A stretch of DNA of 57,622 nucleotides from Clostridia bacterium (GTDB lineage Bacteria > Bacillota > Clostridia > RGIG6154): contig JAGAJK010000009.1 in the NCBI GenBank assembly GCA_017626145.1, positions 1 to 57,622 of the forward strand, in the 5' to 3' direction. Positions 10,921-53,654 of the stretch are shown one piece after another (the first letter of the stretch is position 1; each line of letters starts with the position of its first letter). The notes under the pieces were generated by a model. It was not told the origin of the DNA and searched no databases. It worked only from the letters and a program-made list of their open reading frames with translations. Position numbers and translations under genes: made by a program.

Positions 10921-13587
10921 TTATCTGTAAATATATATTTCCATAGCACCGGGCCAACCGATACGGGTAACTAATTTATCTTCAGGTAAAATCTCTTCCA
11001 AAGAAGAAATCTTGATTTTTCCTTCGCTTATCAAATAGCAGAATGTACTATTTAATACACGCTGCGGCTCATTAACCATATCCGATCTTTCGAATTTGTA
11101 CATAAGAATATCTTCTTTAATACCTACAGCCTTTCCATAGAACAAACCAAATCCATAAGGCTGGTCAAGCTGCGTTAATTCCGTACCTGCATCATTCTGG
11201 ATTCTGTATGTTCCCGGAGCATCTGCTTTGTATATTACGCGGAATCTTGTTAATTTACCTTCGGAATTTGTTTCAAACTGAATAACATCGCCTAATTTAA
11301 GGTCTGTAACTTTTACATTTGAGTACCAACCGCTTTGTACCGAAGAAGTAATATCCTGATCTGATACCATAACACTTGAACGTGCACCATTTATGAAATG
11401 ATTAATCTTAACAGTAGGCATACCTTCCTTATCAACTGCACTTACTAATTTTTCAACAACTGCAGATGACGAATTAGAGAATATATCACTGCCTGCACCT
11501 TGTGCCTGACACACACCAAATTCAGGAATTAAATAATCATCCACTCCATAAAGATACATATTTGAATAATAGTGCTGATTACCGTAATCATCTACTTCAA
11601 CAACACTGTATTCCTTATCATTCTTTCTGTTTTCAGGTGCCGGAATGAAGAAAATTTTCATATCAGAATGAGCACGGTAGCGTGCTTCAAGCATTTCCTG
11701 ATAATAGAATATGTCCCCGGAAACCAGAATATCTTTGCTTAAAGGATAGTCCATTGTTCCCGGACCATTTGTCGTATTGTCAGTTTCAAGATAGAGCTCT
11801 TTTATCTTTCCTGCCTCATTTGCCGAAAACTGAATCATTACACGGGGATCGCTTAAATTCTGATTGGGCAAAAGCTCCTCTGCTTTTTCCTTTGTAACAG
11901 TTTTGCCCTGAAGGTTCTGTGAATTATATATTACAACCTTGTCATCAAGGGTATATATATTCATAACACCATCTTCGTCGAATATTTTAAGCTGTATCTG
12001 AGAATCCAGTCTGTTTTCCTTACCCCAGGTAAGAAGACAACCGAATTTATTCGATGTCTGCTTTCGTGTTGCATCGGCAATTTTACCATCGAAGGTAAGA
12101 TAAAATTCATAAAATCCACCTGGCTCCAATGCTACAATTTCATCATTTACCGGAGTATTGTTACTGTTACCACCCGCCAAAGAATATGTCTTTGTAAGCT
12201 TATATGTTTCATTATTCATAAGAACAGAAGGTATACTGTACTCAAAATCAACAGCATCAATACCTGAACTGATTTTTGTAGTTGAAAGTTCAATTCTCAT
12301 ATACTGTTTGCCTACAGTATTTTTACTTCTCGCAACAGAAACAACCATATCCTTTTTGATATCAGAAATACTTGCAGGTTTTCCTGAAAGATAAACCCTT
12401 AGATCTGTATTATCTTCGTCAAGATTAAGGAATGATTTATCTCTGTATGACAGACCATACTTAAACTGCAAACGATTTGAAGTTCCAACATTATTTTTAG
12501 CAATAAAATGTTCGAATTCGAGAATTGTTATAACATCAATTAATCCGTCGCAATCATTGTCAATAAATTTAAAGGAAGCATCTTTATTTTTATAATCCTC
12601 CAGTTCATCAATATTGACACTACCTGAATATTTGCCGTTATACATAACTCTCGCATCATTAGCTATTTCAAATCTTTTACTATCAACATCATCTGTAATT
12701 TCCATATATCCTTCGCCGCAAGAATATATACTGTCCGACTCAAATTCAGCAATTTGGTTAATGTTATCATCGGGACGTGCCAGAATTATGTATTTTCCGT
12801 CTGCACGTGTTGTTACAAATGCATTTACGCTCATACCAACATATTCCAAAAGTTCTTCTGTATTTGCTTTATAAATACTCTGATCAATGGATGCCTGATT
12901 TTCAAATAATGTTACAATCGGATACATATTTGTAAATGACGAACCGGTAAGTACGCCTTTTTTGAGTACGGTATCAAATCTTGACTCTAAAATAGGCTTG
13001 CCGTATTTAACTTCTCCTGTGCTTTCGGTTTCATTTACATTTATACTGATTGTATTGTATAACAGCTGTATCATTTCACCGTTTGTCATAGGCTGATTTG
13101 CTCTGTATTTAAGATTATAAAGCAACCCGTTGTATTTTGCAGTTATATAATATCCGTGAGGATATCCGCCATTTACTTTAGCTTCATGATTGTACCCTGT
13201 AAGATTAATTGATGTGTAAATAGCTGTATCAAAAGTTAATTTATCAACTTTATTGTTTAAATTCAAAAAACCCGCATTTTTTAATTGTTCAAAATTATTG
13301 TCCTCAGCCGACAAACCAAGAATATGTGCAACTGCATCAACAAAGTCATCAAGCTTTGCTTCTTTTGAAAAATCGTATTTATCGGTAGGTAATACAGAAA
13401 TTCTGAAGAGTAATTCTGATAATATATCAGAATTTTCTACAGCAGTACTTTCAATAACCTGCCCTTTTCCGTATATTCTGTCAAGAGCACCGTCATCAAT
13501 CCATAAATCTACAGCAACAGCAAAACAGGAAACGGGTATTAATGTTGTGATTAACAAAGCAATCAAACAGCACTTTAATAATTTCAT
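10921..13587 (-). CDS. Large secreted protein of unknown function, partner of the SLH surface protein (copy 1)
   Basis: This 888-residue protein has a signal peptide (MKLLKCCLIALLITTLIPVS, cut near CFAVA). I start at the ATG at 13587 because AAAGGAG lies seven bases upstream; an ATG two codons earlier is too close to it. The N-terminal 40-200 region looks like degenerate SLH repeats (for example the YPHGYY segment and MTNGEMIQLLYNTIS). The rest appears beta-rich with no recognised catalytic motif. It is homologous over its length to 46880-49576; for example, both contain a G-x-x-Y-x-F-Y-hydrophobic-x-x-D/G segment followed by an 'IF/VF-x-EDG' segment. Both follow directly after an SLH-anchored protein gene (here an 18-24 nt gap). 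I infer a two-protein surface assembly; the function is unknown. Confidence 0.8.
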   Translation of the reverse strand: MKLLKCCLIALLITTLIPVSCFAVAVDLWIDDGALDRIYGKGQVIESTAVENSDILSELLFRISVLPTDKYDFSKEAKLDDFVDAVAHILGLSAEDNNFEQLKNAGFLNLNNKVDKLTFDTAIYTSINLTGYNHEAKVNGGYPHGYYITAKYNGLLYNLKYRANQPMTNGEMIQLLYNTISINVNETESTGEVKYGKPILESRFDTVLKKGVLTGSSFTNMYPIVTLFENQASIDQSIYKANTEELLEYVGMSVNAFVTTRADGKYIILARPDDNINQIAEFESDSIYSCGEGYMEITDDVDSKRFEIANDARVMYNGKYSGSVNIDELEDYKNKDASFKFIDNDCDGLIDVITILEFEHFIAKNNVGTSNRLQFKYGLSYRDKSFLNLDEDNTDLRVYLSGKPASISDIKKDMVVSVARSKNTVGKQYMRIELSTTKISSGIDAVDFEYSIPSVLMNNETYKLTKTYSLAGGNSNNTPVNDEIVALEPGGFYEFYLTFDGKIADATRKQTSNKFGCLLTWGKENRLDSQIQLKIFDEDGVMNIYTLDDKVVIYNSQNLQGKTVTKEKAEELLPNQNLSDPRVMIQFSANEAGKIKELYLETDNTTNGPGTMDYPLSKDILVSGDIFYYQEMLEARYRAHSDMKIFFIPAPENRKNDKEYSVVEVDDYGNQHYYSNMYLYGVDDYLIPEFGVCQAQGAGSDIFSNSSSAVVEKLVSAVDKEGMPTVKINHFINGARSSVMVSDQDITSSVQSGWYSNVKVTDLKLGDVIQFETNSEGKLTRFRVIYKADAPGTYRIQNDAGTELTQLDQPYGFGLFYGKAVGIKEDILMYKFERSDMVNEPQRVLNSTFCYLISEGKIKISSLEEILPEDKLVTRIGWPGAMEIYIYR

Positions 13588-13611: not shown

Positions 13612-16600
13612 TTACTCTGTTACTATACGGCAGAGAACTACTGCTGCTTCTGCCCTCGTGATACTTGCTTTAGGACGGAAAGCACCGTCATCGTCGCCTT
13701 TCATCAGTCCCATTTTATATGCTTTATTCACATATTCAACAGCCCAATCTGAAATCAGTGATATATCACTGTATTCGAAGCTCTCAAATTCTGCTTCTTT
13801 ATTAACAAAAGAAAGAATTTTTGCAGCTTCTTCTCTTGTAATTTCATCGTCGGGACGGAAATTTTCAGCTTTTGAAATAATCCCTGATTTATATGCCCAC
13901 ATAACTGCCTGTGCATACCATGAGTCTGACTTAACATCACTGTAAATTTGTTCAAATTCAGTTTCTGTTGCTTTTGCAGAACGCATCATCATTGTTATAA
14001 ATTCTGCTCTGCTTACACCTCTGTCGGGTTCATATCCGGTTTCACTTACACCCTTTAAAAAGCCTTCTTTTACCATCGAGGAAATATATTCCTCAGCCCA
14101 ATGACCTTTTGTGTCAGCAAATTCTACAGTCTGTGTATTTGATACATTTTCTTCTTTTTCAGGTTTTTGCGGATTGTCCTTATTTTCCTGCTCATTTTCT
14201 GTAACAGGCGGTACATAGCTTGAACTTCCTGCTCCTGCTACAGAACCTCCTCCGCCACCGCCGCCGAAACCGCCCGATGATGCTCCGGGATTGCCGTAAA
14301 TTACTACACTTGATGATAACACCTCGTCGCTAGACCTTGGTTCATAACTGCTCATACCTACAACCTTTAAAGTAACAGACATACCTTCCATTCCCGGAAT
14401 AATCTGTAAAACCGGCCCGGTTGCAATAACAGCATTTGTTGCAGGATTAATCCAGGTAATTACACTTCCGCTTTCTTCATCACCGTTTACATCAGTGAAA
14501 ATATACTTAGCAGAAAGATTAGCCCCGACAGTTGCTGTACCATGAATCTGAACATTACTGATAATCGGTTTTGCAGGCATTCTTATAATTTCACTTAACT
14601 GTTCTTTTCCGTTAAACGGAGCTTTTGTGCTGACCGGTGTTACGCCAACCCTGACAAACTTTTCAAAATATTCTTCCGTTATGGTAAGCTTATCTGTGTT
14701 TTGAGACGCTATTGGCGTGAAATTACCAGCCTGGCTGTCAGAAATATACCACTGGTATGTTTTAGTATTGACATCATCGTTGTTTAAATCGTAAAACTCA
14801 GATTTTACAGTAAGAGCTTCGCCACTTAATACTTTTCCTTCAACCAAAATATTCTTTATTTCAGGCTCAAATGCACCGCAAAAAGCATCACTTCTTACAG
14901 GCTGTCCTGTCTGAGCATAAAGAGACTCTGCAACCGGTGTAACTTCAAACTTAATATAACAATTCTCATCTGCTTGTGTAAGTTCGTATGTAAGAGCATT
15001 TGCATTTTCTATTAGTGTATACTCACCATCCGCTGTTGCACTGCGATACCACTTAAAAATACTTTCTCCCTGAATATCGTTATTCTTATCACTAAAATTA
15101 TAACTTCCTGTAAGAGATGCGCCTGTTTCAGGATTTCCTGATATTTTTACCTCAGTTGCTTCAGGCTCAAAAGACTCCAGTATATTGAAGCTGATGCTTC
15201 TGCTGAATTCTGAGCCATTATAAACTGCAGTAATTACAACTGTGTGCTCTCCTATATCTAAAATCTGATGATTATTATTAATCGCAACACCGTCAAAAGT
15301 AGCAGTTACTTCTACATTGTCTGTGTCTTCCCAGGCTAAGACTACACCTTCGCCATACTCTCCGTTATTTTTAATATTTACAACGGGAACAGGACTTGTT
15401 GTAAAAGCAAGCACAGATGGAGTTACCGCTTCGCCTAATGAATCAGTAACTGTTGACATATCAATAATGTAAGTTGTAAGAGGTGTTAATTCCTCTTTAC
15501 ACATAAGTGTTACTTTTTTATCATCTGTCTGTATGTCGAAAGCAACATCTTCTTGCGCAAGATTTTTCAGTGTTATCTGTAAATTTTCTGTTTCAATATT
15601 ATCACTTAAATTAAGAGTGATAATATTAACTTCATCTGCGTGTATTACGTCTTTTGTAACATCCTCGGATGAAACTTTCACAGCACAGGTTTCATTCCAG
15701 CCTTTACCTTCAATGTAAGGCTTTAATAAATCTGTATAAATATCTTTTAACACTACTGTTGATTTTTTTGCAATGGAACGACAAAAACTCAAAAGAGTAT
15801 TTGCTTCATCAACAGTAATATCCTGTGAATCTCTTAATTTTTTTACAGCAGCTAAAATTCCTGAATCATCACTTAAAGAAAATCCTTCTACTCTTATGTT
15901 GCTCACCTGCATTGATGTACCGTTGTTTCTCATATCAAGCATATCAATAGACTTACCGGAAAGCTCACTGTCTAAACTAACATTCCATTCAGTAGGCTCA
16001 GTCTCACTGACTTTCCACATTTTAGCATATAAATGGTCTGTATTATCTGCATCCATTTCAATCTTAAGCTTCATCTTAAGAATTTCATTTGCATTAGAGC
16101 CATCTATACTGCTAAGAGAATATCCTTGTGATGCTTTCACAACATCTTCACCAACGCCTAATTTAAGGCATAAGTTTGAACCGCTGAGAAAAGTAAGTCC
16201 GCAGTATATATAAGGACCGTTCTGGCAATCTTCTGTTGTTCCGAAACCTACTCTGTCATTAATGATTGATAAATCAGTAGTACCAGTATCATAAATATCA
16301 AAAGATAAATAATATTCTCCGTCAGCAGATGTATCTATATTTTGCGAAAGCTTTCTTCCAACACCTACATTGCTAAGGTAATTTCGTATCCACTTTCCTC
16401 CGTTTGCCGATCTTATTGTCGGCATATATGAGGCAGGAGAACCTACAGACGGATACCATCCGCCGTCAAAACCTTGTCCGCCGTTCCATGCATTTTCACT
16501 GTTGTAATCTACGCTGTGATTTGCCAGCATATCGTCTGCAGTATAATCAATACCGTCAAAGGCATTAAAAAACGTAAACGTTGTGTTATTATTTGCAAAA

Positions 16601-16665
16601 ACAGGTGTTATACTTAAAGTAACCAAAGTAACAATAAGCATAAAGCATAGCATACGTTTCATCAT
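13612..16665 (-). CDS. SLH-anchored multidomain surface protein (copy 1)
   Basis: This 1017-residue protein has a signal peptide (MMKRMLCFMLIVTLVTLSIT). The start is placed at the ATG at 16665, next to GGGTGG, rather than the longer frame. Domain order: a concanavalin-like domain (about 25-270, with 'GGQGFDGGWYPS' and 'DGEYYLSFDIYDTG', similar to the repeats of the protein at 18615), an Ig-like SbsA type domain (about 330-430), three repeated domains with the 'YFEKFVRVGVTPVS' signature (AIR9-like), a glycine-rich linker near 800, and three SLH repeats (about 850-1017: KGHWAEEYISSM, SWYAQAVMWAYKSGI, SDWAVEYVNKAYKMGL). SLH repeats bind secondary cell-wall polymer, so it is held at the surface. 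Likely glycan binding or scaffold rather than catalytic. Confidence 0.88.
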   Translation of the reverse strand: MMKRMLCFMLIVTLVTLSITPVFANNNTTFTFFNAFDGIDYTADDMLANHSVDYNSENAWNGGQGFDGGWYPSVGSPASYMPTIRSANGGKWIRNYLSNVGVGRKLSQNIDTSADGEYYLSFDIYDTGTTDLSIINDRVGFGTTEDCQNGPYIYCGLTFLSGSNLCLKLGVGEDVVKASQGYSLSSIDGSNANEILKMKLKIEMDADNTDHLYAKMWKVSETEPTEWNVSLDSELSGKSIDMLDMRNNGTSMQVSNIRVEGFSLSDDSGILAAVKKLRDSQDITVDEANTLLSFCRSIAKKSTVVLKDIYTDLLKPYIEGKGWNETCAVKVSSEDVTKDVIHADEVNIITLNLSDNIETENLQITLKNLAQEDVAFDIQTDDKKVTLMCKEELTPLTTYIIDMSTVTDSLGEAVTPSVLAFTTSPVPVVNIKNNGEYGEGVVLAWEDTDNVEVTATFDGVAINNNHQILDIGEHTVVITAVYNGSEFSRSISFNILESFEPEATEVKISGNPETGASLTGSYNFSDKNNDIQGESIFKWYRSATADGEYTLIENANALTYELTQADENCYIKFEVTPVAESLYAQTGQPVRSDAFCGAFEPEIKNILVEGKVLSGEALTVKSEFYDLNNDDVNTKTYQWYISDSQAGNFTPIASQNTDKLTITEEYFEKFVRVGVTPVSTKAPFNGKEQLSEIIRMPAKPIISNVQIHGTATVGANLSAKYIFTDVNGDEESGSVITWINPATNAVIATGPVLQIIPGMEGMSVTLKVVGMSSYEPRSSDEVLSSSVVIYGNPGASSGGFGGGGGGGSVAGAGSSSYVPPVTENEQENKDNPQKPEKEENVSNTQTVEFADTKGHWAEEYISSMVKEGFLKGVSETGYEPDRGVSRAEFITMMMRSAKATETEFEQIYSDVKSDSWYAQAVMWAYKSGIISKAENFRPDDEITREEAAKILSFVNKEAEFESFEYSDISLISDWAVEYVNKAYKMGLMKGDDDGAFRPKASITRAEAAVVLCRIVTE

Positions 16666-16758: not shown

Positions 16759-18618
16759 TTACTGTGTTATTGATGTTACATCAGGATAAACATTTGTAAT
16801 TACAGATGGCAAAATTGTATTGTCTGCAATTAAGTTATCCATATTTTCTTCACCGCAATCGGTAATTCTTATGTCGTTTGTGTTATAACAAACATTATCT
16901 TTAATTATGTTATATTTTGGTTTCAATGGCTCATCATTTAATATATCAGCAAGATGATTATATTTTGAATATGGCGAGCTGAGATGAACTCCTGAAGCAA
17001 GATTTGTATCCCTTAAAAATTCTTCATTAACTTCATATCCGTATCCCGGTGCTACGCCAATTGCAGTAATTCTTACAACAGATTTTGAAACATTAATACA
17101 AATATTATCTGTTACACTGTTATCACGTCCGCCGTTAATCATGACTGCATCTCCGTCTATATCCTCAAATACATTTGAGGAAATTACTGTACCGTCAATC
17201 ATATTATCAAGATATACACAATAGTTACCTTTATTTGCTGATGCTGTCGCAGAAATGTCGTGAATATAGTTGTTTTTTATCTCATTTCCACGATATGTTT
17301 TTACCATCTGTGAGTAAATCGCACCGCTGTCATCAGATTCTTTTAAAACATCATAAATTTCATTTCCTATAATCTGATGGTCATTACCTGTAAAGTAAAT
17401 GGCAAGATGCGGAGAATTATAAATAACATTATCCTTAGCACAGTTTCCTGCACCATTTAAACTTATAGCAGGTGAATAACATTTCTGTTCAATTGAATAA
17501 TCGTGAATTCTGTTATTTGAAATAACATTGTTACCGAATGAAAGTGTTGCCAGACTTCCTCCCGAAACAGCAACACCACCGCTGCCATTCTGATAAATTT
17601 CACAATCATTAACAACACAAGCTGAAGAATTTGAAATCTTTACGCCTGTTTTAAAGGTGTTTGAAATTTCACATTTCTCAACAGTTACACTTTCACAAGC
17701 ATTCAATACTATTCCGTTTTCACAGCTGCCGCTGATTTTAAGATTTTTAAATGTTACATATCCAAGGTCATTGCAATTAATAACCGGAGCCTGTAAGCCT
17801 GATAATATAACCTCACCGCTTTTGGTTTGCGGATAGAAATATAAAATTCCTGTATTTCTGTCAAGATACCATTCGTTGGGAGCATCTAATTCTTCTAAAA
17901 GATTATATACATAAAATCTCTGATTTTCCCGAACGCCTGATACACTTGGATTAACTCCCGTAATGACTCCTGATGAATCTATTGAGGACACCTTTACTGC
18001 CAGATCACTCCAATCCCAATACCAGTAACCATGCATATACATATCATCAGCATTTACCCATTTGGCAAATTTATCTGCAGGAATATCTCCCTTAACACTG
18101 AAACCACTGTTTTCGACGGCTGAGCCCTGATCAATTACCTCTGTTACTGTTGTGTATTCATCATTTGGCCAACGCGCTAAGCTTGCAGTTATATCATTAT
18201 GAATCAGATTAAATGGCATTTCTTTTAAATATGAAATACCCTGCTCTGAATAATAAGATGCTCCATGACCTGTAACAGGTAGTTCACCATATTCCGTAAT
18301 ACCATACTCATTCAAATCAAGACATACAACATTATCAATTACTTCAGGATTGATTTTACTGATTGCTTCCTGATTTGTTACTTCATGGAAATCATTTTCT
18401 ATACTAAAAGTTTTTCCGCCTGTCAGAACTGCCTGTTCTCCCGGATACGAGGAATACACTATAGGTGCATTTTCCAAACCGCTATCCTTACTTTCAAATA
18501 AAACAGTTTCATCAATTTCATATGTTCCCTGACGCAAGTACACTACAAATCCACCTTTTGGATAACCATATTCGGATTTATAGCTACGAATGTAATTTTG
18601 TGCTTGCGCCAGTGTCAA
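16759..18618 (-). CDS. Beta-helix glycosidase-like domain, -1 frame continuation of the gene at 18615-22337
   Basis: This 619-residue frame has no signal peptide and opens in mid-domain: its first residues (LTLAQAQNYIRSY, then GGFVVYLRQGTYEIDETV) are the direct continuation of the IFVDETATNDGNGDITAPF end of the upstream frame. Together they restore the N-terminal signature of the beta-helix family seen at 1008 and 22370. The body is GH141-like beta-helix (PNDEYTTVTEV, GILYFYPQ, then many NN-I-HD coils). Unlike the paralogues it ends without a stalk domain. The nominal start is a TTG overlapping the upstream TGA; the nearest GGAG is 16 nt away, too far for good reinitiation. Either a -1 frameshift makes a ~1859-residue fusion, or one T is missing from the T5 run. 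Confidence 0.75.
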   Translation of the reverse strand: MTLAQAQNYIRSYKSEYGYPKGGFVVYLRQGTYEIDETVLFESKDSGLENAPIVYSSYPGEQAVLTGGKTFSIENDFHEVTNQEAISKINPEVIDNVVCLDLNEYGITEYGELPVTGHGASYYSEQGISYLKEMPFNLIHNDITASLARWPNDEYTTVTEVIDQGSAVENSGFSVKGDIPADKFAKWVNADDMYMHGYWYWDWSDLAVKVSSIDSSGVITGVNPSVSGVRENQRFYVYNLLEELDAPNEWYLDRNTGILYFYPQTKSGEVILSGLQAPVINCNDLGYVTFKNLKISGSCENGIVLNACESVTVEKCEISNTFKTGVKISNSSACVVNDCEIYQNGSGGVAVSGGSLATLSFGNNVISNNRIHDYSIEQKCYSPAISLNGAGNCAKDNVIYNSPHLAIYFTGNDHQIIGNEIYDVLKESDDSGAIYSQMVKTYRGNEIKNNYIHDISATASANKGNYCVYLDNMIDGTVISSNVFEDIDGDAVMINGGRDNSVTDNICINVSKSVVRITAIGVAPGYGYEVNEEFLRDTNLASGVHLSSPYSKYNHLADILNDEPLKPKYNIIKDNVCYNTNDIRITDCGEENMDNLIADNTILPSVITNVYPDVTSITQ

Positions 18619-18638
18619 AAAGGGGCGGTAATATCTCC
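18615..18638 (-). promoter_or_regulatory. Possible programmed -1 ribosomal frameshift site
   Basis: On the minus strand the zero frame reads GCC CCT TTT TGA. C_CCT_TTT fits the X_XXY_YYZ slippery heptamer (18624-18618) and is followed directly by the stop. A Shine-Dalgarno-like GGAG (18638-18635) lies 10 nt upstream, the stimulatory spacing known from dnaX. A -1 slip gives TTG ACA CTG GCG, the exact continuation of the conserved domain. No strong downstream hairpin was seen. Confidence 0.45.
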
Positions 18639-21600
18639 ATTTCCGTCGTTTGTTGCAGTTTCATCAACAAATATACGTACCGCTTCATCAAATTCAGGTA
18701 TTACTGAACCCGAAAAATCTATACTTGCATCCTTACAAAGGGGTGCTATACTTCCGTCTGCCTTCCATAAAAAAGCACGAACTATTTTACCTTCACTAAG
18801 AGAAATTTCATCAAGAGTTACAGATACAGTAACTTCATCCCCCTCAGTAACAGGATAAGTATTCCCTTCAACTAAAGCTACTTTTTCGAGTTTTTTAGTA
18901 CTCTTATCGTAAACTGCAATCAAAGGCATAACATTGTAATCCCTGCCAAGGGTGTTTTTAATAATCCATTCACCGCTTACAGATGTCATATCAGCAGTTA
19001 ATTTTTCAATAATACGTCCATCAGCATTCTTGAAATTGAAAGATAAACCGATAAGTTCCTTAGGTGCTTTTGCCAAAGTTTTAACAAGCATATCATCTTT
19101 TGCAATACCCTCAGCAAATGTTTCGACCTCTGCTTTTACAGTTTCATATGTATCCTTTTCAATTCCGTCAATTTTTGAATACATTTCTCTGAGTGCAAGG
19201 CTTTCATAACCTTCCATATGTACTTTACCCATAAAGGCTGTTGTTCCGCCGTGAGTAAATGATAACTGATTAAGCTTATAAGATGAAAGCTCTTTGTTTA
19301 TAACACAGGTCCAGTCTGCAGGTTCATCCTTTTCCTTGTTCCATGCCTTCATATATACAGTATCTGTTCCGTCAGAATCTATGCTTATTCTTATTTTAAA
19401 CTTAAATATTTGTCTTAAAATATCATCATAATCTATGAATTTCTTTTCACTTAATGCCTTATCTTCGCCAACACCCAGTTGGAAGTGATATTCATTCTCT
19501 GCAAGGGAAATACCTGCATAAAGAGTCTGTTCTGCGTTTGCAGATTTATCAGCAAATCCGATTTTTGTATCTACAGGTGGAAAATCGTCAGGAGTTCCTG
19601 TATCATACATTTCAAAAGCAAAATAGTATTCTGAATCTTTAGTCGTATCAATAGCGTAAGCTAAATCTCTTTTTATAGGTGTAGCTTTGTAATAGTTCTT
19701 TATAAAATTGCTTGAATCTTCAGATGTAACAATACCCGGAACAGACACGTCCATACTTCCTGCGCCATACCATGCTCCTGCAAAACCTGCACCACTGTTC
19801 CAGAGGTCTTTATTTGCCTGAAGGGCACCTGAATATGAAGATAAATCATCGTAGAAGAAGCCTTTTTCTGTCAAAGCAGAAAGTCTGTCTGCAAGTTCAG
19901 CTTCATCTGTTATTTCAAAAAGCTTATTATATTCATCAAGTGTTGCATTAGCATAATCAACGCGTTCTCTGTATTTTACAATTTCAAGGTTACCTAAATG
20001 TGCTGCTCCGCCATAAATTCTGTAATCAACCGCATTGAGGTTGAGTTCTGAAAGCTCAGAATTTACTGTCATTGTCCAGCCACTTGGTTCAGCATCTCCC
20101 TTTTCGGGACACCAGCCTTTGGCTGAAACTGTGTCAATACCGTCAGCATCAACATCAATTTTCACTTTAAGCATCATATTCTTGCCCCAGAAACTCCAGA
20201 AACCGTAGTTTACATCTGCAAGAACGGTTTCTCCGTTTACAGATAATTGATAACAGTATTTTTCATTTGCTGCATCATAGCATACACCTGCAAATAAAGG
20301 TGCTGCTGCATCAAGGCTTACATTACTGCTGTCAGTAAAACCAACCTTGTGATTCTGTGCTTTTGTTTCACTTGCAGATTCACGAAGCATAAAGGTAACA
20401 ACATATGTACCGTCATTTACTGTATCAATTGCATCTGTAAGAATACGGTTATTTGTTACCGTACTTCCATCACACTTAAGATACTTGTATGCTCCGTTTT
20501 CTGAAATTGAACTGTCGTAGTTTCCTGCACCTCTGTACCAGGCACCACTAAAGCCTGTTCCGCCATTTAATGTTCCCGATGTTAAAGTTGTGCCTGTAGC
20601 ATAGTCAAAGTTTTCTGACACTACTGTTGTTTTCCATGGTTCTACCGGTTCCTCCTCAAAAGATATACTGTTTACTTTCGCAAGAATATCTTCTTTTGCA
20701 AGACCTATAATATATTCTTCAACTTCAGCCTTAACTGATTCTAATGTATCAGCATCTACTGTTTCAATTTTTGAGTATAACTCTCTTACAGCATCTGCCT
20801 TATAGCCTTCCATATATAATTTACCGAAGAAAGATGTTGTTCCGTTACCGGTATAAGTAACCTGATTTAATGTATAACCCGAAAGCTCTGCTGTTTTTAC
20901 GCAAGACCAATCCGCAGGCTCAGCATTTCCTGACATCCACGCTTTCATATATACTGTATCAACAGCATCTTCATCAATTGAAAGTCTTACTTTAAATTTA
21001 ATTTTCTTTGTAAGTAACTCTTCTTTTGTTGTAAATTTTTCTTCACTTAATACCCTGTCTTCCCCTACACCAAGCTGGAAACGGTATTCGTTTTCTTCTG
21101 TGAGGCATACACCTGCATACAGAGTCTGTGCTGTGTCAGTAGCCGCCTTATCCGTAAATGCAAGCTTATTATTTATCGCAGGAAATTCATCAGGACTTCC
21201 GTTGTCATACATTTCAAATGAAAGATAATATTCACCATCTTTAGTTGTGTTAATCGGATAAGCCAAATCTCTTTTTATATGTGTTGATGCATAGTAGTTC
21301 TTTATAAAATTGCTTGAGTCTTCAGCTGTAACAATACCCGGAACAGATGCGTCCATACTTCCCTGTGCAAACCAAGCTCCTGAAAAACCTGCTCCGCTGT
21401 TCCAGAGACCTGTATTTGCCTGAAGTGCACCTGAATAATCTTTTAAATCATCGTAGAAAAATCCATTCTGAGCAAGAACATTAATTCTTTCGGCTAATTC
21501 TTCTTCATCTGTTACATTTGCAAGGTTTTTATATTCTTCTAAAGTTGCATTTTCGTATGTAATATCATAATTATATTTTACAATATTTAACGCACCAAGA

Positions 21601-22337
21601 TGAGATGCACCACCATAAATTCTGTAATCAACCGCATTGAGGTTAAGTTCTGAAAGTTCAGAATTTACTGTCATTGTCCAGTCATTTGGTTCAGCATCTC
21701 CCTTTTCGGGACACCAACCTTTGGCTGAAACTGTGTCAATACCGTCAGCATCAACATCAATTTTCACTTTAAGCATCATATTCTTGCCCCAGAAACTCCA
21801 GAAACCGTAATTTACATCTGCAAGAACTGTTTCTCCGTTTACAGATAATTGATAACAGTATTTTTCATTTGCTGCATCATAGCATACACCTGCAAATAAA
21901 GGTGCTGCTACATCAAGGCTTACATTACTGCTGTCAGTAAAACCAACCTTGAGGTTTTGCTGCTTTGTTTCATTTGCAGATTCACGAAGCATAAAGGTAA
22001 CAACATATGTACCGTCATTTACTGTATCAATTGCATCTGTAAGAATACGGTTACTTGTAACTGTAGATCCGTCGCATTTAAGATACTTGTATGCTCCGTT
22101 TTCTGAAATTGAACTGTCGTAGCTTCCTGCACCTCTGTACCAGGCACCACTAAAGCCTGTTCCGCCATTTAATGTTCCCGATGTTAAAGTTGTGCCTGTA
22201 GCATAGTCAAAGTTTTCTGTAGCTATCAGAGTTTTCCAGGGTAAAACATCTGTTGTATCAGCTCCTACAGAAACTGCGGGCATTATAGTGCAAAGCATCA
22301 TAATACTCATTAACAAACAAAATAATCTTTTTTTCAT
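18615..22337 (-). CDS. Giant secreted protein with four tandem lectin-like domains, joined to beta-helix by frameshift
   Basis: This 1240-residue frame has a signal peptide (MKKRLFCLLMSIMMLCTIMPAVSVGA). Four concanavalin-like domains are arranged A-B-A-B: A at about 34-265 and 568-800 (ENFDYATGTTLTSGTLNGG), B at about 290-545 and 825-1080 (GFFYDDL.SYSGALQAN). The A-B unit is duplicated with a 1602-bp period at near-identical DNA level. An FN3/Ig-like domain follows (about 1085-1210), then the beginning of the beta-helix motif (IFVDETATNDGNGD). The frame ends at a TGA inside the slippery stretch C CCT TTT TGA, where the -1 frame carries the rest of the beta-helix. Start follows AAAGGAG. A surface glycan-binding enzyme is likely; the A/B domains also resemble the N-terminus of the SLH protein at 13612. 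Confidence 0.8.
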   Translation of the reverse strand: MKKRLFCLLMSIMMLCTIMPAVSVGADTTDVLPWKTLIATENFDYATGTTLTSGTLNGGTGFSGAWYRGAGSYDSSISENGAYKYLKCDGSTVTSNRILTDAIDTVNDGTYVVTFMLRESANETKQQNLKVGFTDSSNVSLDVAAPLFAGVCYDAANEKYCYQLSVNGETVLADVNYGFWSFWGKNMMLKVKIDVDADGIDTVSAKGWCPEKGDAEPNDWTMTVNSELSELNLNAVDYRIYGGASHLGALNIVKYNYDITYENATLEEYKNLANVTDEEELAERINVLAQNGFFYDDLKDYSGALQANTGLWNSGAGFSGAWFAQGSMDASVPGIVTAEDSSNFIKNYYASTHIKRDLAYPINTTKDGEYYLSFEMYDNGSPDEFPAINNKLAFTDKAATDTAQTLYAGVCLTEENEYRFQLGVGEDRVLSEEKFTTKEELLTKKIKFKVRLSIDEDAVDTVYMKAWMSGNAEPADWSCVKTAELSGYTLNQVTYTGNGTTSFFGKLYMEGYKADAVRELYSKIETVDADTLESVKAEVEEYIIGLAKEDILAKVNSISFEEEPVEPWKTTVVSENFDYATGTTLTSGTLNGGTGFSGAWYRGAGNYDSSISENGAYKYLKCDGSTVTNNRILTDAIDTVNDGTYVVTFMLRESASETKAQNHKVGFTDSSNVSLDAAAPLFAGVCYDAANEKYCYQLSVNGETVLADVNYGFWSFWGKNMMLKVKIDVDADGIDTVSAKGWCPEKGDAEPSGWTMTVNSELSELNLNAVDYRIYGGAAHLGNLEIVKYRERVDYANATLDEYNKLFEITDEAELADRLSALTEKGFFYDDLSSYSGALQANKDLWNSGAGFAGAWYGAGSMDVSVPGIVTSEDSSNFIKNYYKATPIKRDLAYAIDTTKDSEYYFAFEMYDTGTPDDFPPVDTKIGFADKSANAEQTLYAGISLAENEYHFQLGVGEDKALSEKKFIDYDDILRQIFKFKIRISIDSDGTDTVYMKAWNKEKDEPADWTCVINKELSSYKLNQLSFTHGGTTAFMGKVHMEGYESLALREMYSKIDGIEKDTYETVKAEVETFAEGIAKDDMLVKTLAKAPKELIGLSFNFKNADGRIIEKLTADMTSVSGEWIIKNTLGRDYNVMPLIAVYDKSTKKLEKVALVEGNTYPVTEGDEVTVSVTLDEISLSEGKIVRAFLWKADGSIAPLCKDASIDFSGSVIPEFDEAVRIFVDETATNDGNGDITAPF

Positions 22338-41147: not shown

Positions 41148-41152
41148 AGAAA

Positions 41153-42986: not shown

Positions 42987-43018
42987 TGCTTATTTATCCT
43001 TCCTTAATACCATAGCCT

Positions 43019-44856: not shown

Positions 44857-44859
44857 AAC

Positions 44860-45681: not shown

Positions 45682-45697
45682 AAAAACGCCCTCTCCG

Positions 45698-45904
45698 TTA
45701 ATCAATTACTGTCGTTTCGCCTGATTTAACACAATATGTTTTTTCTTTTATCTCAAACCATACGTCAATCACTAATGGGTTATATATAATTTTTATATCA
45801 AAACTTGTCTTATTATAAGCACTGACATAATCATGAATTTCAATATTTGTTGCGTACCATATATTATCTCTGTTACCTACATATTCACAAAACTCTTCTA
45901 TAAG
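45698..45904 (-). pseudogene. C-terminal stub of a polysaccharide deacetylase-like gene
   Basis: I read by hand LIEEFCEYVGNRDNIWYATN, then IEIHDYVSAYNK and a stretch ending YNPLVIDVWFEIKEKTYCVK, with a stop at 45698. This matches the C-terminal part of clostridial NodB-type polysaccharide deacetylases as I recall them. The catalytic NodB portion is gone and the frame is closed by a stop just upstream. It fills the gap between the unknown possible propeller gene and the isomerase-like gene. Confidence 0.55.
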
Positions 45905-45948: not shown

Positions 45949-46821
45949 TTAAAAATCAATGATATAAAAATTACCATGATTGTCTGCATAATAACATACA
46001 TTATCCCAGAAGTCTATCATTTCAGGTTCAATTGTATATCCCATATTATATAAATCAATAAAAGAAATTTCTTTCTTTTCAGTTAAATCCACAATTCTCA
46101 TTGCAGATGGATTTTCTTCGTTATCTGTAAAACCTTCAAGAGTATATATTTTACTTTTATATGCACATGCACCCTGAATATAATGCTGATAACTACAATC
46201 AAATTGAATCTTTATATCTTTTACGCCAAGTACTACTCTGTTTACACCATACTTTTCATCCATTTTACCATCAGTAACTTCAGGTAAATCAAAAGCAAAA
46301 TATCGTGTTGTGTTTGTTTTATCACGCATAGTAAAAGCATAATATATGCCTTTTTCGTTATCTATTGCAAAATTACCGTAAGGTCTTACATCATCTTTTT
46401 CATCGGATGATTTCCAGTAATTCACATTTTCGGTAAATCCGATTTCAATTATCTGAACTAAGGTTGATTTGAAGTTATTTTCGTTACGTTCGATACGATA
46501 CACAAGAGTTACACCCTTCATTTTATTATCGGTCCAGGAATAATTATTGTAAATATTAGTATAAAGCAATGGAAATTCATCATCTTTACTGTAATATTTA
46601 CATCCAAACATAACAGAGTTACTGTGAGGTCTTAATTCTTCTGTTCTGTCAAGACTGAATGAAGCTGTTTCATTTATTTCTCCGGTATTTTTAACAGATA
46701 TATCGAATTTGCTGATATCGTACACATAACAAGTGCCTACCGAATCAAAACGAAATAAATAATTATTAAAAATTGCTCCGTCCTGATCTCCTTTTATTTT
46801 TCCGATTTTCTTTATATTCAT
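45949..46821 (-). CDS. Unknown protein, possible beta-propeller
   Basis: About 290 residues. The start is set at the ATG at 46821 (GGAGAG six bases upstream); a longer frame to 46890 overlaps the previous gene and has no site. No signal peptide. The sequence consists of repeated strand-rich segments (FNNYLFRFDSVGTCYVYD, PLLYTNIYNNYS, KIYTLEGFTDNEE, NVCYYADNHGNFYIIDF) like blades of a propeller that could bind a carbohydrate. I do not recognise the family. It follows the surface-protein partner gene and precedes the deacetylase stub. It may be a cytoplasmic binding or enzyme subunit for the same glycan. Confidence 0.65.
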   Translation of the reverse strand: MNIKKIGKIKGDQDGAIFNNYLFRFDSVGTCYVYDISKFDISVKNTGEINETASFSLDRTEELRPHSNSVMFGCKYYSKDDEFPLLYTNIYNNYSWTDNKMKGVTLVYRIERNENNFKSTLVQIIEIGFTENVNYWKSSDEKDDVRPYGNFAIDNEKGIYYAFTMRDKTNTTRYFAFDLPEVTDGKMDEKYGVNRVVLGVKDIKIQFDCSYQHYIQGACAYKSKIYTLEGFTDNEENPSAMRIVDLTEKKEISFIDLYNMGYTIEPEMIDFWDNVCYYADNHGNFYIIDF

Positions 46822-46879
46822 AATTATCTCTCCAATTAAATATATCATATGCAGTGCCCTTACGGGCACTGCATAAATT

Positions 46880-49576
46880 TTAATTTTCATACTTTAAAGT
46901 AAGATAAGCATTAGGACCACCTGTTATAATCTGAACTTCTTCTCCGACATGGAAATTTGAAATTGAAAGGTTTTCAAGCTTATGAGTGTTCTTATTAACA
47001 CTTCCGAGTATTCTTGTTCCCACGGTACGAAGTCCGTATTCACCGCAGTCCACAAGTATAAGAAATTCTTCATAGTTGATTCTTACAATTTTACCGTAAA
47101 GCAATTCATATGTATTTACCGTATTTGTTTCATAGTCATACATATAGTAATCGTCTGTTTCTTCCGTAACAATTGTACCTGTTCCCACAAATTCAAAGTT
47201 TCTGCTTGGAAGGTACGGCTTACCGCCACGAATATCAACAGACCAGTCAACGAGATTTGTTCCTACCACATCGATTTTCAGGAAATCTCCAACATAGAAT
47301 TCTTCTCCGGCTGCCATCTTTCTGTTGTAATCATCTTCTTTTAAGTAGTAACTTCTTTTTTCAAAAGTACCTGTGCCTTTGCCGCCGCCTCTTATACCTT
47401 CCATACCGATTACTTTATATCCATAAACAAAGTCTTCTTTATCGATTACCACTCTTCTCATGCTTTCAACATATAAAAATGTAGGTGTATTACTTTCTGC
47501 AGCAGCATCGCTTAAATTACCGTTATAAATAACGGCTCCTACCTGAAGAAAATCATCGGGATTGTATAAAGACATTGTATATACCATACCGTTTTCAAAA
47601 GCACTGGGATTTAACACTTTATATTCGGATTCCCTTGTTTTATTGGTAGGAATAACAAACACTTTTGCGTTTGGATTGAAAAGATAATTCGAACCCTGGA
47701 TAAACCATTTTGTCCAGTCAACCATTGCGGTAATCTCTTCTACAAAATTTACGTCATCAGGATTACTTTCTCCAAGACCATTATCTTTGGCGGTAAACAA
47801 TGAAGTGATTTTATCGGAGCTGTTGGCTTTATATCTTATAAGTCCGCCCACTATCTCACCTGCGTTAGTTTCGATAAAAGTTGAAACATTCTCTTTTGAT
47901 ACGCCTGCCGTTCCTTCAAGTTCTATTTTATCCGCAAAAGTAAAGTTTTTCCATTCACCGTCTTCAGTAAACACTCTGAGGCTGATTTCAGGGTCAATAC
48001 TTGTTCTCGACTTCATTGCCGCTTTAACGATACCGTATGAATATAAATCAGCACCAACGGTTATTCCCGCAATTACACCATCCATAATATAGAAGGTATA
48101 TGCATTACCAAGTTGGGGATAGACAGCTCTGTCGGAGCTTGTGATATTATTATCCTCACAATATTTGATATGCTTAATCAAATCTTTTGAAAGTCGGTAA
48201 CTTTTACCTGCAACCTCTATTACGTCATCTGATATTGATGCAACTTCACCTTTTTGACGTTCACTGCTTGCATCAATACAAAAATAATTCGTTTCACTGC
48301 ATTCTAAAACTCTGATTGTACTGTTTAACGGAATATCAGTATAATTTGCTTTAACACCGTAAATTGAAACGGAATTGATTCCGTTATTGTCAAGCTGAAT
48401 ATACTTTTCACCTTTATATGTCTGACCATTCTTTAAACCAATTCTTAAAAGAGAGGCATCAACATAATCTACAACATAATAATTGTATCTGTAAATTAAC
48501 GCAGTATCGATTGTTCCTTCATCTTCAGAAGCAGTTAAAACGATTTTACCTTCACAGTTTTTAGGACTCTCCATCTGAGAAAGAGAGCTTATTCTTTTAC
48601 CGTTTTCTGTTACAGTATTAACATTTCCGACAATTACACTGTTTTCATTACCATTTTCGTCAATGTAAATAATCTCACTGTCATTGTATTCCGAAATATT
48701 ATTGAAATCAATTTCCATATACTTACTGTCTGATTTTTGAGCAATATACACTATTTTATATTCCTGTATAAGCTCATTGAACATAGCATATGCTTCAACC
48801 TGTTTTGAAAAATATCCGGATAAATCGGAACCATCAGTATTGATTTTAGTTCTGTTTATTTCAATATACCCATCACGAAGAGTTGCACCTCCGTAAACGG
48901 ATAAACCTCTTACAGCATTTACAAATCCGCTGACATCGTAAATTCCATGAATAGTATTTAAAAGATTTTTACCGGGAACAACCGTATAATTTACACTACC
49001 ACCCTCAGAATAGTCTGCCACACAAAGATCAGTTGTAAGTGCTTTTTTGAGCAAATGTGCCAGGTCTTTTCTCGAAATAAATTCGTCTGTACTTTCAGGA
49101 TATGAGGATAAAATATTGATTTCGTCACATACAATTAAAAGTGCTTCGTTTGTTTTGCCGTAGTACTCGTATTTGTATCCGTAACCCAAAGCATTTACGA
49201 TACATTCAAGAGCATATCCATAAGTTACCTTATTGTTATCAGGATTCTGAATATAAACATTTTCAAGAGCATTTTCTTTACCAAGTCTTGCATTTGACAT
49301 AATAACCGCAAATTCAGTCATAGTAAGAAAGGATTCCTTTGACTTTTCGGTATCATCCCAGATGCCTATTGAATGTAAAAAGCTTATTGTTTGCATATCG
49401 GGATCTGATGCTGAATCTTCGACTGATGCCTCTCCCGAAAGTTCTCCTACATCAAACTTAAAGATATAATCGATAATCTCGGAAGCGGGAATGTCGTTAT
49501 ACGCAAAGGCAGAAACAGATGACATTGAAATAATGAAAACAAGTAATAAGCTAAATAATCTTCTGATTTTTCTCAT
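46880..49576 (-). CDS. Large secreted protein of unknown function, partner of the SLH surface protein (copy 2)
   Basis: This 898-residue protein has a signal peptide (RKIRRLFSLLLVFIISMSSV, cut near AFA-Y). The N-terminal 40-200 region resembles degenerate SLH repeats (LTMTEFAVIMSNARLG, SRKDLAHLLKKALT). A long beta-rich body follows with no recognised catalytic motif. It is homologous over the full length to 10921-13587 and has the same gene order: it starts immediately after the stop of an SLH-anchored protein gene (ribosome binding site GGAGGCGG inside that gene's end). It may dock to, or be displayed with, the SLH protein. The function is unknown; the duplication of the pair is the main evidence that they act together. 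Confidence 0.8.
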   Translation of the reverse strand: MRKIRRLFSLLLVFIISMSSVSAFAYNDIPASEIIDYIFKFDVGELSGEASVEDSASDPDMQTISFLHSIGIWDDTEKSKESFLTMTEFAVIMSNARLGKENALENVYIQNPDNNKVTYGYALECIVNALGYGYKYEYYGKTNEALLIVCDEINILSSYPESTDEFISRKDLAHLLKKALTTDLCVADYSEGGSVNYTVVPGKNLLNTIHGIYDVSGFVNAVRGLSVYGGATLRDGYIEINRTKINTDGSDLSGYFSKQVEAYAMFNELIQEYKIVYIAQKSDSKYMEIDFNNISEYNDSEIIYIDENGNENSVIVGNVNTVTENGKRISSLSQMESPKNCEGKIVLTASEDEGTIDTALIYRYNYYVVDYVDASLLRIGLKNGQTYKGEKYIQLDNNGINSVSIYGVKANYTDIPLNSTIRVLECSETNYFCIDASSERQKGEVASISDDVIEVAGKSYRLSKDLIKHIKYCEDNNITSSDRAVYPQLGNAYTFYIMDGVIAGITVGADLYSYGIVKAAMKSRTSIDPEISLRVFTEDGEWKNFTFADKIELEGTAGVSKENVSTFIETNAGEIVGGLIRYKANSSDKITSLFTAKDNGLGESNPDDVNFVEEITAMVDWTKWFIQGSNYLFNPNAKVFVIPTNKTRESEYKVLNPSAFENGMVYTMSLYNPDDFLQVGAVIYNGNLSDAAAESNTPTFLYVESMRRVVIDKEDFVYGYKVIGMEGIRGGGKGTGTFEKRSYYLKEDDYNRKMAAGEEFYVGDFLKIDVVGTNLVDWSVDIRGGKPYLPSRNFEFVGTGTIVTEETDDYYMYDYETNTVNTYELLYGKIVRINYEEFLILVDCGEYGLRTVGTRILGSVNKNTHKLENLSISNFHVGEEVQIITGGPNAYLTLKYEN

Positions 49577-49577
49577 T

Positions 49578-52500
49578 CTATTCCGCCTCCGTTAATTTTA
49601 ATATTCTTACAAGCATTGTAGCTGCCTGTGCTTTGGTTACTGTTCCCTTCGCATCAAATTCAGTGTCGGAAACACCAACCATAATTTTATTTCCGTAAAT
49701 TGCATTTACATATACTCTTGCCCATTCGGAAATATTGTCGAAATCTGCAAAAGTATTAATTAAACCGTCTTCCACTTCTGCAAGCTTGCCTGCATTTTTA
49801 AGGGATACATAAAGAATTTTACACATTTCTTCACGGGAAATTGTGTCATTCGGTCTGAAGTTTGTGTCCTTTGCAATAGTTCCGTTATCAAGCATTGTCT
49901 GAAGCTTTTTAGCAAATTCTCCATCCTTTACGTCGCTAAATTGACTTGAATATTCGCTTTCTGCAAGCTTTAATGCGTCAAATAAGAATGTTACCATTTC
50001 CTCTCTTGATACATTTACATCAGGATTATAATTTCCCTTATCATCTGTTTTCATAACACCACGAGTTTCCATATCCTTAATGTAAGCTTCACCCCAGTGT
50101 CCGCTTATATCTGTAACCTTTGTATTATCCTGTGTTTCAGGAACAGTTTGCATATTATTTATATTTACAACTCCGGATGTGGTGCCTGCATTTGCATATC
50201 CACCGCCTCCACCAAAACCGCCTGATGTGCCACCTGATGTACCGCCTGACGGCATATCAAGATTACCCGCAACGTACACAGAAACAGAAACCTTTTTTCC
50301 TGTTGACGGATTTGTGTCACCCACAGGCGTTACGGAAAAGGTAACAAGCTTTACACCTGCAAAGTTTTTCACAAGATTGGGCTCATTTGTGTAAGAAGCA
50401 ATTCCATCAATTGTCCATTCATAAACAGAATTTAATTCTCTTGCATTGTGAGGGTGGAAATATGTATAGCTTCCGATTATTCTTCCGCCCGACTCGGTAA
50501 TACGTAAATCGTAGGCAGAAGGTGCAGAAGGACCAATATATTCCTTACTTAAAGTTTCTTTTCCTGTTTCGGGTGAATTAACAGATACGGGAGTAACGCC
50601 AAATTTAATGTATTTATCTGTTAAATCTTCTGTGAGAACAAGAGTTTTTTCTGTCTGTCCCGGAATTTGCGTAAGAGAGCCGTTATTCATATCGTATATA
50701 TACCATTTGTATATACTTGCACCTTCCGTATCGGCATTTATATCATTAAACGAATACTTTGCCGCAACAGTTCCGCCTATTTTAAAATCACCATCAATTA
50801 ATACATCAGTTGCAACAGGTGCCGTAGGTTTTACAAGTATATTCGAGAATGCTTCTTCACCTGTTGTTCCGTCAGTGGTTTTAGGTATTACGCAAAATCT
50901 GATAAATTTATCCTTATATGCATCTTCTACTGTGTATGTAAGAGAGGTTGCTCCGGGAATATCGTAGTATGTACCATTCTGAAAATCAGAATACATCCAT
51001 TTTACAACTGATGCATCTGCTTTGCCTTCAACCTGATAGAAATTATATGACCCCGTAAGAGTTTCTCCCTTAATAACGTCACCATTTGCAGTTACATTTA
51101 AAGCTTTTGGTGTTGTATCATCATGAGAAAGTACTTTAAGTTCAAGCTTTTTGATAAATTCCGACTGTGCGGCACCTCTGTATGACGGAATGCATGATAC
51201 GGTAACCTCAACAGTCCCCGAGTTAGCGGATGAGTCAATTACTATTATGTTGTCAATAACATTTACTCCCGGTAAATCAGGTACAGATACAACTACATTC
51301 TGTCCGGTAAGACCATCTTGTTCATTAAACTGATTAAACAATTTACCTGTAGTTACGGGAACTTTAACAACATCATTTCCTTTTGGAACGGTTACAGAAT
51401 TAAGTGTGTACGTTTCAATATCCGAAATCATAAGCTCACCGAGATACACATCGTCAATAATAGCTTCGGCATCAAATGCTGCAAAAGACATAAAACCGAA
51501 TGCATATTGTCCTGCTGTAGGTGTCATAAATGAAAGAGTTACTCTCTTCCAGTCATCGTTTATTTCCGTCATTTCATTATTTCGGTCAAGTTTCTCCACA
51601 GTTCCCATCCAGTTATATGCTTCATAACCTGAATAGGTTTTCATATTAGCGGATTTTACCATACCCGAAACAATATAAGTTTTATTGGCTTCAAGATTAA
51701 TTTTCTGGTGGAAATTCTGACTCGCGGTAGTTCTTGAATGTGCACGCAAAGCATAATTTCCCGTATATGCATCGTCGGTAATTTCAATCGCAATACCCTG
51801 GTCAAACCAAGGTTCAACACTTCCGCTTTCAAAATTGCCGTTCACTATTTTATTTGTAAGTGCAATAAGGTCACCAATTGGGCCGCAAACATCACTTTCT
51901 TCAACAGCACCCGTCTTTTCATACTCCCCTTCACTTACGGGAGTAATCACACATTTAAAATACTTTCCGTCGTATTCATCTTTTATTTCAAAGATTTTTC
52001 CCGACTGAACACAATTCCAACCATCTGCACCGTTATCCGATATAAACCATTCTATTTCAGAGCCTTCTTCAGAATCTCCGTTAGGGTCATAAAAATCGTA
52101 AGAAGCGGTTATGCTTGTTCCTTTTGCATAAAGTTCCGAACTGAAACTGATATTATTTGCAACAGGAGCTTTTTCAGGTACAATTACATTACTTTCATAG
52201 AATTGAGTACCTTCGAGACCTGAAAATGTAACAGGCTTCACCTTAAATTTAATGTACTTTTCGTACATAGCATTAGTAACTGTGATTTCTTTGGCATTTT
52301 GGTTATCTATTTTGACAAACTCACCATCGGCACTGTCACACATATACCATTCGTAATAAGATGCGCCTTCCTGAGTTTCTGAAATTAAATCGTAATCTGC
52401 AATAATTTTAGTGTTTGGAATCACTCTGCCCTGAATTCTTACGTTATCTGCAACGGGAGGCATTGTTGCATATGAAGAAAATGAAATTTCATTTTCTTTA

Positions 52501-53654
52501 AAGCCCATCTGCTGTATCATACCTACGGTTTCATTAACCGGAACCGCCCTTTCAGGGTCAATTACAAACTTATATTCACCCTCCGTAAGCGCCTGTTCAA
52601 AGGTTGCAGTATATGTAAATGTTTCTTGGTTATAACTGCCGTTATGTGCAACAGTGTTTCCTGAAGAATCAACAACCGTAATTGCATTTTCAGATACTGT
52701 AACAGGAGCATCAAACACCAAGTTGAGCTCTTGCGGGTTATATATAATACCTACATCGGTATTTGGAATAACCTTAGCTTCAACTTCCGATTTTTGATTG
52801 AAAATCCTCAAATCATCCAAATCAAACTGTTCATCGGTAACATCAAGCGCGTTTAAAAAATGTATTGTAATATCTTCAATAGAATCCATTACCTTAGGTT
52901 GTGTTTTATTATAGTCATAATAATCAAACCACCAGGCGTTGAGATTTTTATTCTTATATGATGTAAGAAGTACGCCGTTTTCATTGTATATGTACATGTC
53001 CGCTTTGCCATCTTTGTTATTCCACACACTCTTAACGGTATACCATTTATCTAAATCATAAGTTATAAGTGTTTCTAAATTCCCCTGCATAAAGGTTTGA
53101 GGATTTGTTCCGCCTACATGAGACCAGGTTGAACGGAAATTACCTGTCGTGACACCGTTTGATGTGCTCGATGTCATTGCAAGTGCTACTCTGAGATTAT
53201 AACCTATTTCGTTATATCCGTTGGTATTTTTTGTGCCGCTTGTAGGGTAATTATATTTGATATATTTTCTTAAATCATATGAATTGGTTCTGACCTTCAT
53301 TTCAAGAACCGTACAGTTATCCATATCTCTTAAAAACTTTCCGTCAGAAAACTTTTTTGAATATGCAACAACTTTACCATCGCTGTTGGTCTGCAGACCC
53401 GTATACGAAAGACGTAGAAACTTGTTTCCGTTTTCTTCGGTAATAATTGTTGCAGTCTTTGTTCCGGGTGAAGCATCGGCCCTAAAATACCAGTCTGACA
53501 AATCACCATCCTCAAAATCATCGTTTACATAACTGACCGTTTTAGTAATCGTTTCATCATCGGAAGCAGTATCCGCATAAACGCACGGCACAGCAACGGA
53601 TGTCATTAACAATGCTGTTACGCATAGCATAGATAGTGCTTTTTTAATTCTCAT
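49578..53654 (-). CDS. SLH-anchored multidomain surface protein (copy 2) with carbohydrate-binding module
   Basis: 1358 residues from the ATG at 53654, which follows a perfect AAAGGAGG; the longer frame to 53717 is rejected. Signal peptide MRIKKALSMLCVTALLMTSV, cut near VYA-D. Domain order: concanavalin-like (about 40-290, NDDFEDGDLSDWYF), Ig-like SbsA type (about 300-410), AIR9-like repeats (signature 'YEKYIKFKVKPVTF'), a CBM4/9-like module (about 600-745, NGNFESGSVEPWFDQG ... EAIIDDVYLGEL), further AIR9-like repeats, a Gly/Ser-rich linker near 1138, and three SLH repeats (about 1180-1358). It is anchored on the cell wall and binds glycan; no catalytic domain is seen. Architecture parallels 13612-16665, with the CBM module added. 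Confidence 0.9.
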   Translation of the reverse strand: MRIKKALSMLCVTALLMTSVAVPCVYADTASDDETITKTVSYVNDDFEDGDLSDWYFRADASPGTKTATIITEENGNKFLRLSYTGLQTNSDGKVVAYSKKFSDGKFLRDMDNCTVLEMKVRTNSYDLRKYIKYNYPTSGTKNTNGYNEIGYNLRVALAMTSSTSNGVTTGNFRSTWSHVGGTNPQTFMQGNLETLITYDLDKWYTVKSVWNNKDGKADMYIYNENGVLLTSYKNKNLNAWWFDYYDYNKTQPKVMDSIEDITIHFLNALDVTDEQFDLDDLRIFNQKSEVEAKVIPNTDVGIIYNPQELNLVFDAPVTVSENAITVVDSSGNTVAHNGSYNQETFTYTATFEQALTEGEYKFVIDPERAVPVNETVGMIQQMGFKENEISFSSYATMPPVADNVRIQGRVIPNTKIIADYDLISETQEGASYYEWYMCDSADGEFVKIDNQNAKEITVTNAMYEKYIKFKVKPVTFSGLEGTQFYESNVIVPEKAPVANNISFSSELYAKGTSITASYDFYDPNGDSEEGSEIEWFISDNGADGWNCVQSGKIFEIKDEYDGKYFKCVITPVSEGEYEKTGAVEESDVCGPIGDLIALTNKIVNGNFESGSVEPWFDQGIAIEITDDAYTGNYALRAHSRTTASQNFHQKINLEANKTYIVSGMVKSANMKTYSGYEAYNWMGTVEKLDRNNEMTEINDDWKRVTLSFMTPTAGQYAFGFMSFAAFDAEAIIDDVYLGELMISDIETYTLNSVTVPKGNDVVKVPVTTGKLFNQFNEQDGLTGQNVVVSVPDLPGVNVIDNIIVIDSSANSGTVEVTVSCIPSYRGAAQSEFIKKLELKVLSHDDTTPKALNVTANGDVIKGETLTGSYNFYQVEGKADASVVKWMYSDFQNGTYYDIPGATSLTYTVEDAYKDKFIRFCVIPKTTDGTTGEEAFSNILVKPTAPVATDVLIDGDFKIGGTVAAKYSFNDINADTEGASIYKWYIYDMNNGSLTQIPGQTEKTLVLTEDLTDKYIKFGVTPVSVNSPETGKETLSKEYIGPSAPSAYDLRITESGGRIIGSYTYFHPHNARELNSVYEWTIDGIASYTNEPNLVKNFAGVKLVTFSVTPVGDTNPSTGKKVSVSVYVAGNLDMPSGGTSGGTSGGFGGGGGYANAGTTSGVVNINNMQTVPETQDNTKVTDISGHWGEAYIKDMETRGVMKTDDKGNYNPDVNVSREEMVTFLFDALKLAESEYSSQFSDVKDGEFAKKLQTMLDNGTIAKDTNFRPNDTISREEMCKILYVSLKNAGKLAEVEDGLINTFADFDNISEWARVYVNAIYGNKIMVGVSDTEFDAKGTVTKAQAATMLVRILKLTEAE

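Follow-up and report, generated by a model that had tools for sequence, protein, structure and literature searches.

The window, that is, the whole 57,622-nucleotide stretch of Clostridia DNA analysed here, contains two two-gene modules which were both confirmed by checking ORF positions. The two modules and the genes that flank them lie on the minus strand. In each module, a gene encoding a protein with three C-terminal SLH repeats (the companion) precedes a gene encoding a protein of roughly 890 residues (the partner). Companion 13612 (13612..16665, with an alternative start at 16701; about 1017 aa) contains two IG_AIR9 domains, a Gly-rich linker and the SLH trimer (13642..14121), and its stop codon is separated by 18 bp from the start of partner 10921 (10921..13593; 890 aa). 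Companion 49578 (49578..53654, alternative start 53717; about 1358 aa), a candidate wall anchor, contains three IG_AIR9 domains, a CBM_4_9 domain, likewise a Gly-rich linker, and the SLH trimer (49620..50114); partner 46880 (46880..49576; 898 aa) starts 1 bp downstream. The two companions are 32% identical over 606 aa (E 9e-61) and the two partners 23% identical over 477 aa (E 8e-19). The same gene order, near-zero spacing and homologous products ascribed to the modules in the preliminary description were thus borne out. The term "duplicated" is too loose: a recent duplication was rejected, since the partners share only 23% identity and belong to separate deep lineages of the tree, partner 46880 to an expanded lineage and partner 10921 to a diverged one.

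A GH3 enzyme is encoded directly 3′ of partner 10921 (9195..10892), and a gene for a 313-aa unannotated protein (45949..46890) has an 11-bp overlap with the 3′ end of partner 46880. Upstream of the 13612/10921 pair, two ORFs (16759..22337) encode a beta-helix protein with a weak GH141_M match. The two ORFs seem to be a single lectin-module/beta-helix gene broken by a frameshift in a T5 run near 18615 (..TAPF / FLTLAQ..), beyond which translation continues in a different frame, and repeats of the jelly-roll-like module found by eye at the N-terminus of companion 13612 were also seen in the 5′ part of its product. A 5′-truncated beta-helix gene (53729..54844) lies upstream of the 49578/46880 pair. 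Between the modules (39176-45705), two sugar-isomerase-like TIM-barrel genes (39176 and 43019) and two oxidoreductase genes (40140 and 43828) are very similar to each other and, judged by eye, represent a local duplication.

The window companions matched the Pfam SLH model with E values of 8e-37 and 4e-22. Both carry three SLH repeats with at least one complete ligand site, two complete SCWP sites being predicted in companion 13612 and one in companion 49578. No recognised catalytic domain was found in the companions, and most of the small companions lack a recognised carbohydrate-binding domain. According to BLAST comparisons, the companion heads split into many unrelated clusters, and no docking domain outside the SLH repeats is common to all companions.

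The partners start with a signal-peptide-like sequence (read by eye), and neither of those in the window contains a Pfam or NCBIfam domain above the cut-off. Their N-terminal regions resemble SLH repeats in a degenerate form (approximately 13009..13515 in partner 10921 and 49007..49501 in partner 46880); neither has a Pfam SLH match or a complete ligand site. The region in partner 10921 has no predicted wall-polymer site, and the degenerate trimer of partner 46880, which is followed by a long unannotated array, has neither an SLH model match nor such a site. In the partners of this genome, the first half of SLH2 (the first helix and loop) is missing, as is plain in the alignment, and their homology to members with intact SLH repeats is clear. 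The signal peptide, the degenerate SLH-like N-terminus and the lack of recognised domains in the preliminary description were all found again. In two homologues from the same genome (on contigs C50 and C44), which have no SLH neighbour, the N-terminal SLH repeats are intact; the partner is hence a paralogue of a surface protein with N-terminal SLH repeats, and its own repeats have decayed. The profile of the superfamily matched Sap and SpaA among the PDB sequences over the SLH part only; the array region matched none of them, and its self-comparison gave a weak repeat signal at domain-sized spacing (best probability 56%).

The genome (2.78 Mb in 98 contigs, the window being contig C75) contains seven pairs. 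Six partners are of the 46880 type (on C75, C82, C29, C8, C16 and C52); each immediately follows, with a gap of −4 to 8 bp, the gene for a C-terminal-SLH protein of 1350-1460 aa. The seventh is the diverged copy of the 10921 type. The identities among partners correlated with those among companions (r=0.98; 6/5040 permutations), which is consistent with duplication of these pairs as units. Such co-divergence was not found in genome G358 (r about 0). In each of the seven pairs, the companion is immediately preceded by a beta-helix gene or a related one of the Cu_amine_oxidN1 type, either intact or broken, the copy on C8 being assigned by its close similarity to that on C29. Five of the seven modules have a broken or split beta-helix gene in this position, the C52 and the second window copies being gapped or truncated. 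In the copies on C29 (L010, 1-2765) and C8 (L011, 12301-15498), a single in-frame TGA interrupts the gene at an identical site, ahead of LTVYVQAYGG. Slightly more than 1 kb past the C29 pair lies a decayed partner fragment (G000:C29:33159-33449), a 107-aa ORF similar to profile positions 699-796. The contig-end ORFs at 1-1014 of L011 and L012 (C8 and C16) are of equal length and share their first 45 and last 40 residues, which suggests a repeat where the assembly broke.

Using a profile of the six 46880-type partners, we detected the superfamily in 53 of the 391 genomes sampled from the class; a 398-genome sample of the phylum yielded no further genome with it. In contig-level scans, the profile of the six partners yielded nothing, whereas a broad alignment gave matches. 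ORFs in the survey loci were called mechanically and scanned with an SLH model built in this study; since, in addition, at most two matches per genome were kept, the survey is a sample and not a census. The 86 full-length members comprised 38 with degenerate, 19 with intermediate and 29 with intact SLH repeats. A position directly 3′ of a C-SLH gene (within 100 bp) was found for 32/38 degenerate, 6/19 intermediate and 1/29 intact members, compared with a baseline of 13/506 for other genes in the same loci. This contrast in adjacency gave a Fisher p of about 7e-12 (2e-8 without this genome and G358), the test on independent branches having three usable pairs only and hence no power. When any C-SLH gene up to three genes away in the same orientation was counted, the proportions were 36/38, 11/19 and 2/29, respectively. 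The preliminary description had expected the family of about 890 residues to lie next to SLH genes and had named its occurrence mostly without such a neighbour as an argument against the pair. The expectation held for the degenerate type, whereas the subfamily with intact SLH repeats is normally solitary. Five members (L071, L110, L115, L122 and L131) form a separate clade with about 200-240 residues before the SLH repeats and mostly no adjacent C-SLH gene. Direct pairs were present in 24 genomes from 10 family groups. Occurring seven times in this genome and in 10 families, the arrangement is confirmed to be well beyond chance, and the pair as a conserved module is supported.

The wall-polymer site of P. 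alvei SpaA depends on three residues from consecutive SLH repeats (n, n+1 and n+2), namely Gly29, Trp13 and Arg43, respectively (PMC6081394). By this rule, a predicted site is kept in all intact members (29/29) and all companions (39/39) but in only 14/39 partners, although the calls in degenerate N-termini rest on the HMM alignment, with poor alignment and gaps scored as absence. No predicted site was found in any partner of this genome (0/2 in the window); since 14 of the 39 partners keep one, the loss of the anchor is not universal. Among all 86 members, the site is absent from 25 of the 40 paired and 3 of the 46 unpaired ones; of these three, one lies two genes downstream of a C-SLH gene and another is a natural fusion. 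The fusion protein (L099:6488-11635; 1715 aa) consists of a CBM_4_9 domain, a long middle region, three SLH repeats, an acidic linker and a degenerate partner. Its middle region resembles a TIM-barrel glycosidase by eye and has no Pfam match. No signal peptide was found at the SLH/partner junction, and the fusion links the putative anchor and the partner covalently. In a tree of the array region with the SLH columns excluded (a quick tree in which many deep nodes are weak), the solitary intact members mainly formed one tight, short-branched group tracking the host family, and the paired members formed many deep, long-branched lineages. The solitary paralogue could be a housekeeping surface protein of these bacteria.

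The cultured strain Ructibacterium gallinarum DSM 107454, assigned to "Monoglobaceae" by GTDB-Tk (PMC8269260), has 30 full members of the superfamily, 18 of them directly 3′ of a C-SLH gene. A C-SLH gene lies within three genes of 25/27 non-intact and 0/3 intact members. Wall sites were predicted in all three intact members (3/3), 8/18 partners and 18/18 companions. The companion heads are 16% identical (shuffled floor 14%), the partner arrays 20% and the companion SLH regions 37%; judged by these values, the companions of R. gallinarum combine a conserved putative anchor with a variable head. Permeases were found among the neighbours of its pairs (13/79 scanned), as were GH10, GH31, GH36-type, GH42, GH78 and beta-helix proteins.

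Throughout the survey, the neighbours of the pairs included ABC sugar permeases, solute-binding proteins, AraC regulators, F5/8C, CBM9, heparinase-like, GH78, GH42 and beta-helix proteins, and those of the intact members were mainly housekeeping genes. The window encodes four GH3 and three GH20 enzymes, a DUF3502 solute-binding-like lipoprotein, a sugar isomerase-like protein and a kinase, together with an aldolase-like protein and AraC-like regulators, the last two read from the sequence by eye. Sugar permeases were not seen in the window; outside it they are the commonest neighbour of the pairs. Glycosidases, parts of sugar ABC transporters and a regulator, which characterise a Gram-positive polysaccharide utilisation locus, are all represented, and the placing of the pairs in glycan-utilisation loci was corroborated.

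We propose that the pair forms a two-protein surface unit for glycan foraging in monoderm Clostridia, in which the SLH companion is the wall anchor; of the readings considered we regard this one as the most likely, with the chances for and against it evenly balanced. The C-terminal SLH repeats of the companion would bind the pyruvylated wall polymer (a match to the pyruvyltransferase family, that of CsaB, is present in the genome), and the companion would display a variable N-terminal head, which may be a CBM4/9, an Ig-like domain or an unrecognised beta-sandwich plus a helical domain. The downstream partner, with its wall-binding sites largely decayed, would be held at the surface via the companion by contacts of the pseudo-SLH repeats or the array. 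The two proteins together would hold glycans or enzymes beside the glycosidases and the sugar ABC importer of the locus. The physical complex, the loss of wall binding, the glycan binding and the cargo are what we infer from protein sequences and gene neighbourhoods.

S-layer proteins such as Sap and SpaA usually consist of an N-terminal SLH trimer and an array. The ancestor type of the partner resembles Sap of B. anthracis and SpaA of P. alvei in this respect, and all 29 intact paralogues (29/29) show this layout, but the window partners do not: in most partners the SLH trimer has decayed, and the partner gene is coupled to that of another SLH protein. The descent from N-SLH proteins with an array and the weak domain-sized repeats would suit a locus-specific patch of S-layer, into the lattice of which the pair co-assembles as a structural element or sieve, the association with glycan loci being a by-product of their abundance in these genomes. 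We consider this unlikely, since the neighbours of the pairs are strongly glycan-related and those of the intact members are not, and about 27 diverged copies in one genome are many for a single lattice. Still less probable is a reading in which the two genes have nothing but their transcription in common: no complex forms, the companion remains wall-bound and the partner is released to act in the medium, for instance as a soluble binding protein. The lost wall sites of the partners would fit such a release, but the fixed gene order with near-zero spacing in 10 families, the co-duplication in this genome and the fusion of an SLH trimer with a partner argue against it. An adhesin or variable surface antigen facing host mucus or phages, as opposed to a nutrient system, would explain why the pairs are so divergent and numerous in gut bacteria, but it is improbable, since they are repeatedly linked to genes for glycosidases, solute-binding proteins and sugar permeases.

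The proposed foraging unit shares features with other surface systems. Anchoring scaffoldins of cellulosomes combine SLH repeats with a cohesin. As in these proteins of plant-polymer degraders, an SLH protein would keep a further surface protein attached to the wall, but the pair contains neither cohesin nor dockerin (none of the latter was found in the partners). A part in a cellulosome was rejected, as the only cohesin match genome-wide was a weak one on another contig. An outer-membrane tether or porin of the OmpM type was rejected as well, since the matches to PDB SLH chains cover the SLH repeats only and no Omp85 was found in the genome. The combination of CBM or Ig-like domains with SLH repeats in the companion resembles the SLH-bearing surface glycosidases and CBM proteins of Firmicutes; unlike these, it lacks a recognised catalytic domain, and its gene is followed by that of a dedicated partner. 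Many SLH proteins are reportedly described in the genome paper on Monoglobus pectinilyticus. No description of such a pair was found in the literature searched, which covered few subscription papers.

In Bacteroidota, SusC forms a TonB-dependent channel in the outer membrane, with the lipoprotein SusD as its lid. The analogy in role to SusC/D in the preliminary description stood for the layout and the copy number but not for homology: the pair consists of adjacent genes in many diverged copies per genome, lies inside glycan loci with glycosidases and regulators nearby and has one highly variable half, but neither protein matches the SusC or SusD models of Pfam, no outer-membrane marker such as Omp85 is present and import would be by an ABC transporter. 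It is possible, although we put this forward with some doubt, that the pair is a hallmark of SusC/D-like glycan acquisition in monoderm Clostridia, in which a variable recognition protein is anchored to the wall and a partner without an anchor docks onto it, each polysaccharide locus having its own pair and R. gallinarum about 27 copies.

How complex glycans are retained on the cell surface is understood much less well for Gram-positive gut bacteria than for Bacteroidota, and the pair carried by many gut Clostridia may be a Gram-positive means to this end. As a recurring mark of glycan loci, it provides a handle for finding such loci in Clostridia genomes. It also predicts a specific physical arrangement, an anchor with a docked partner, which would be testable in the cultured type strain.
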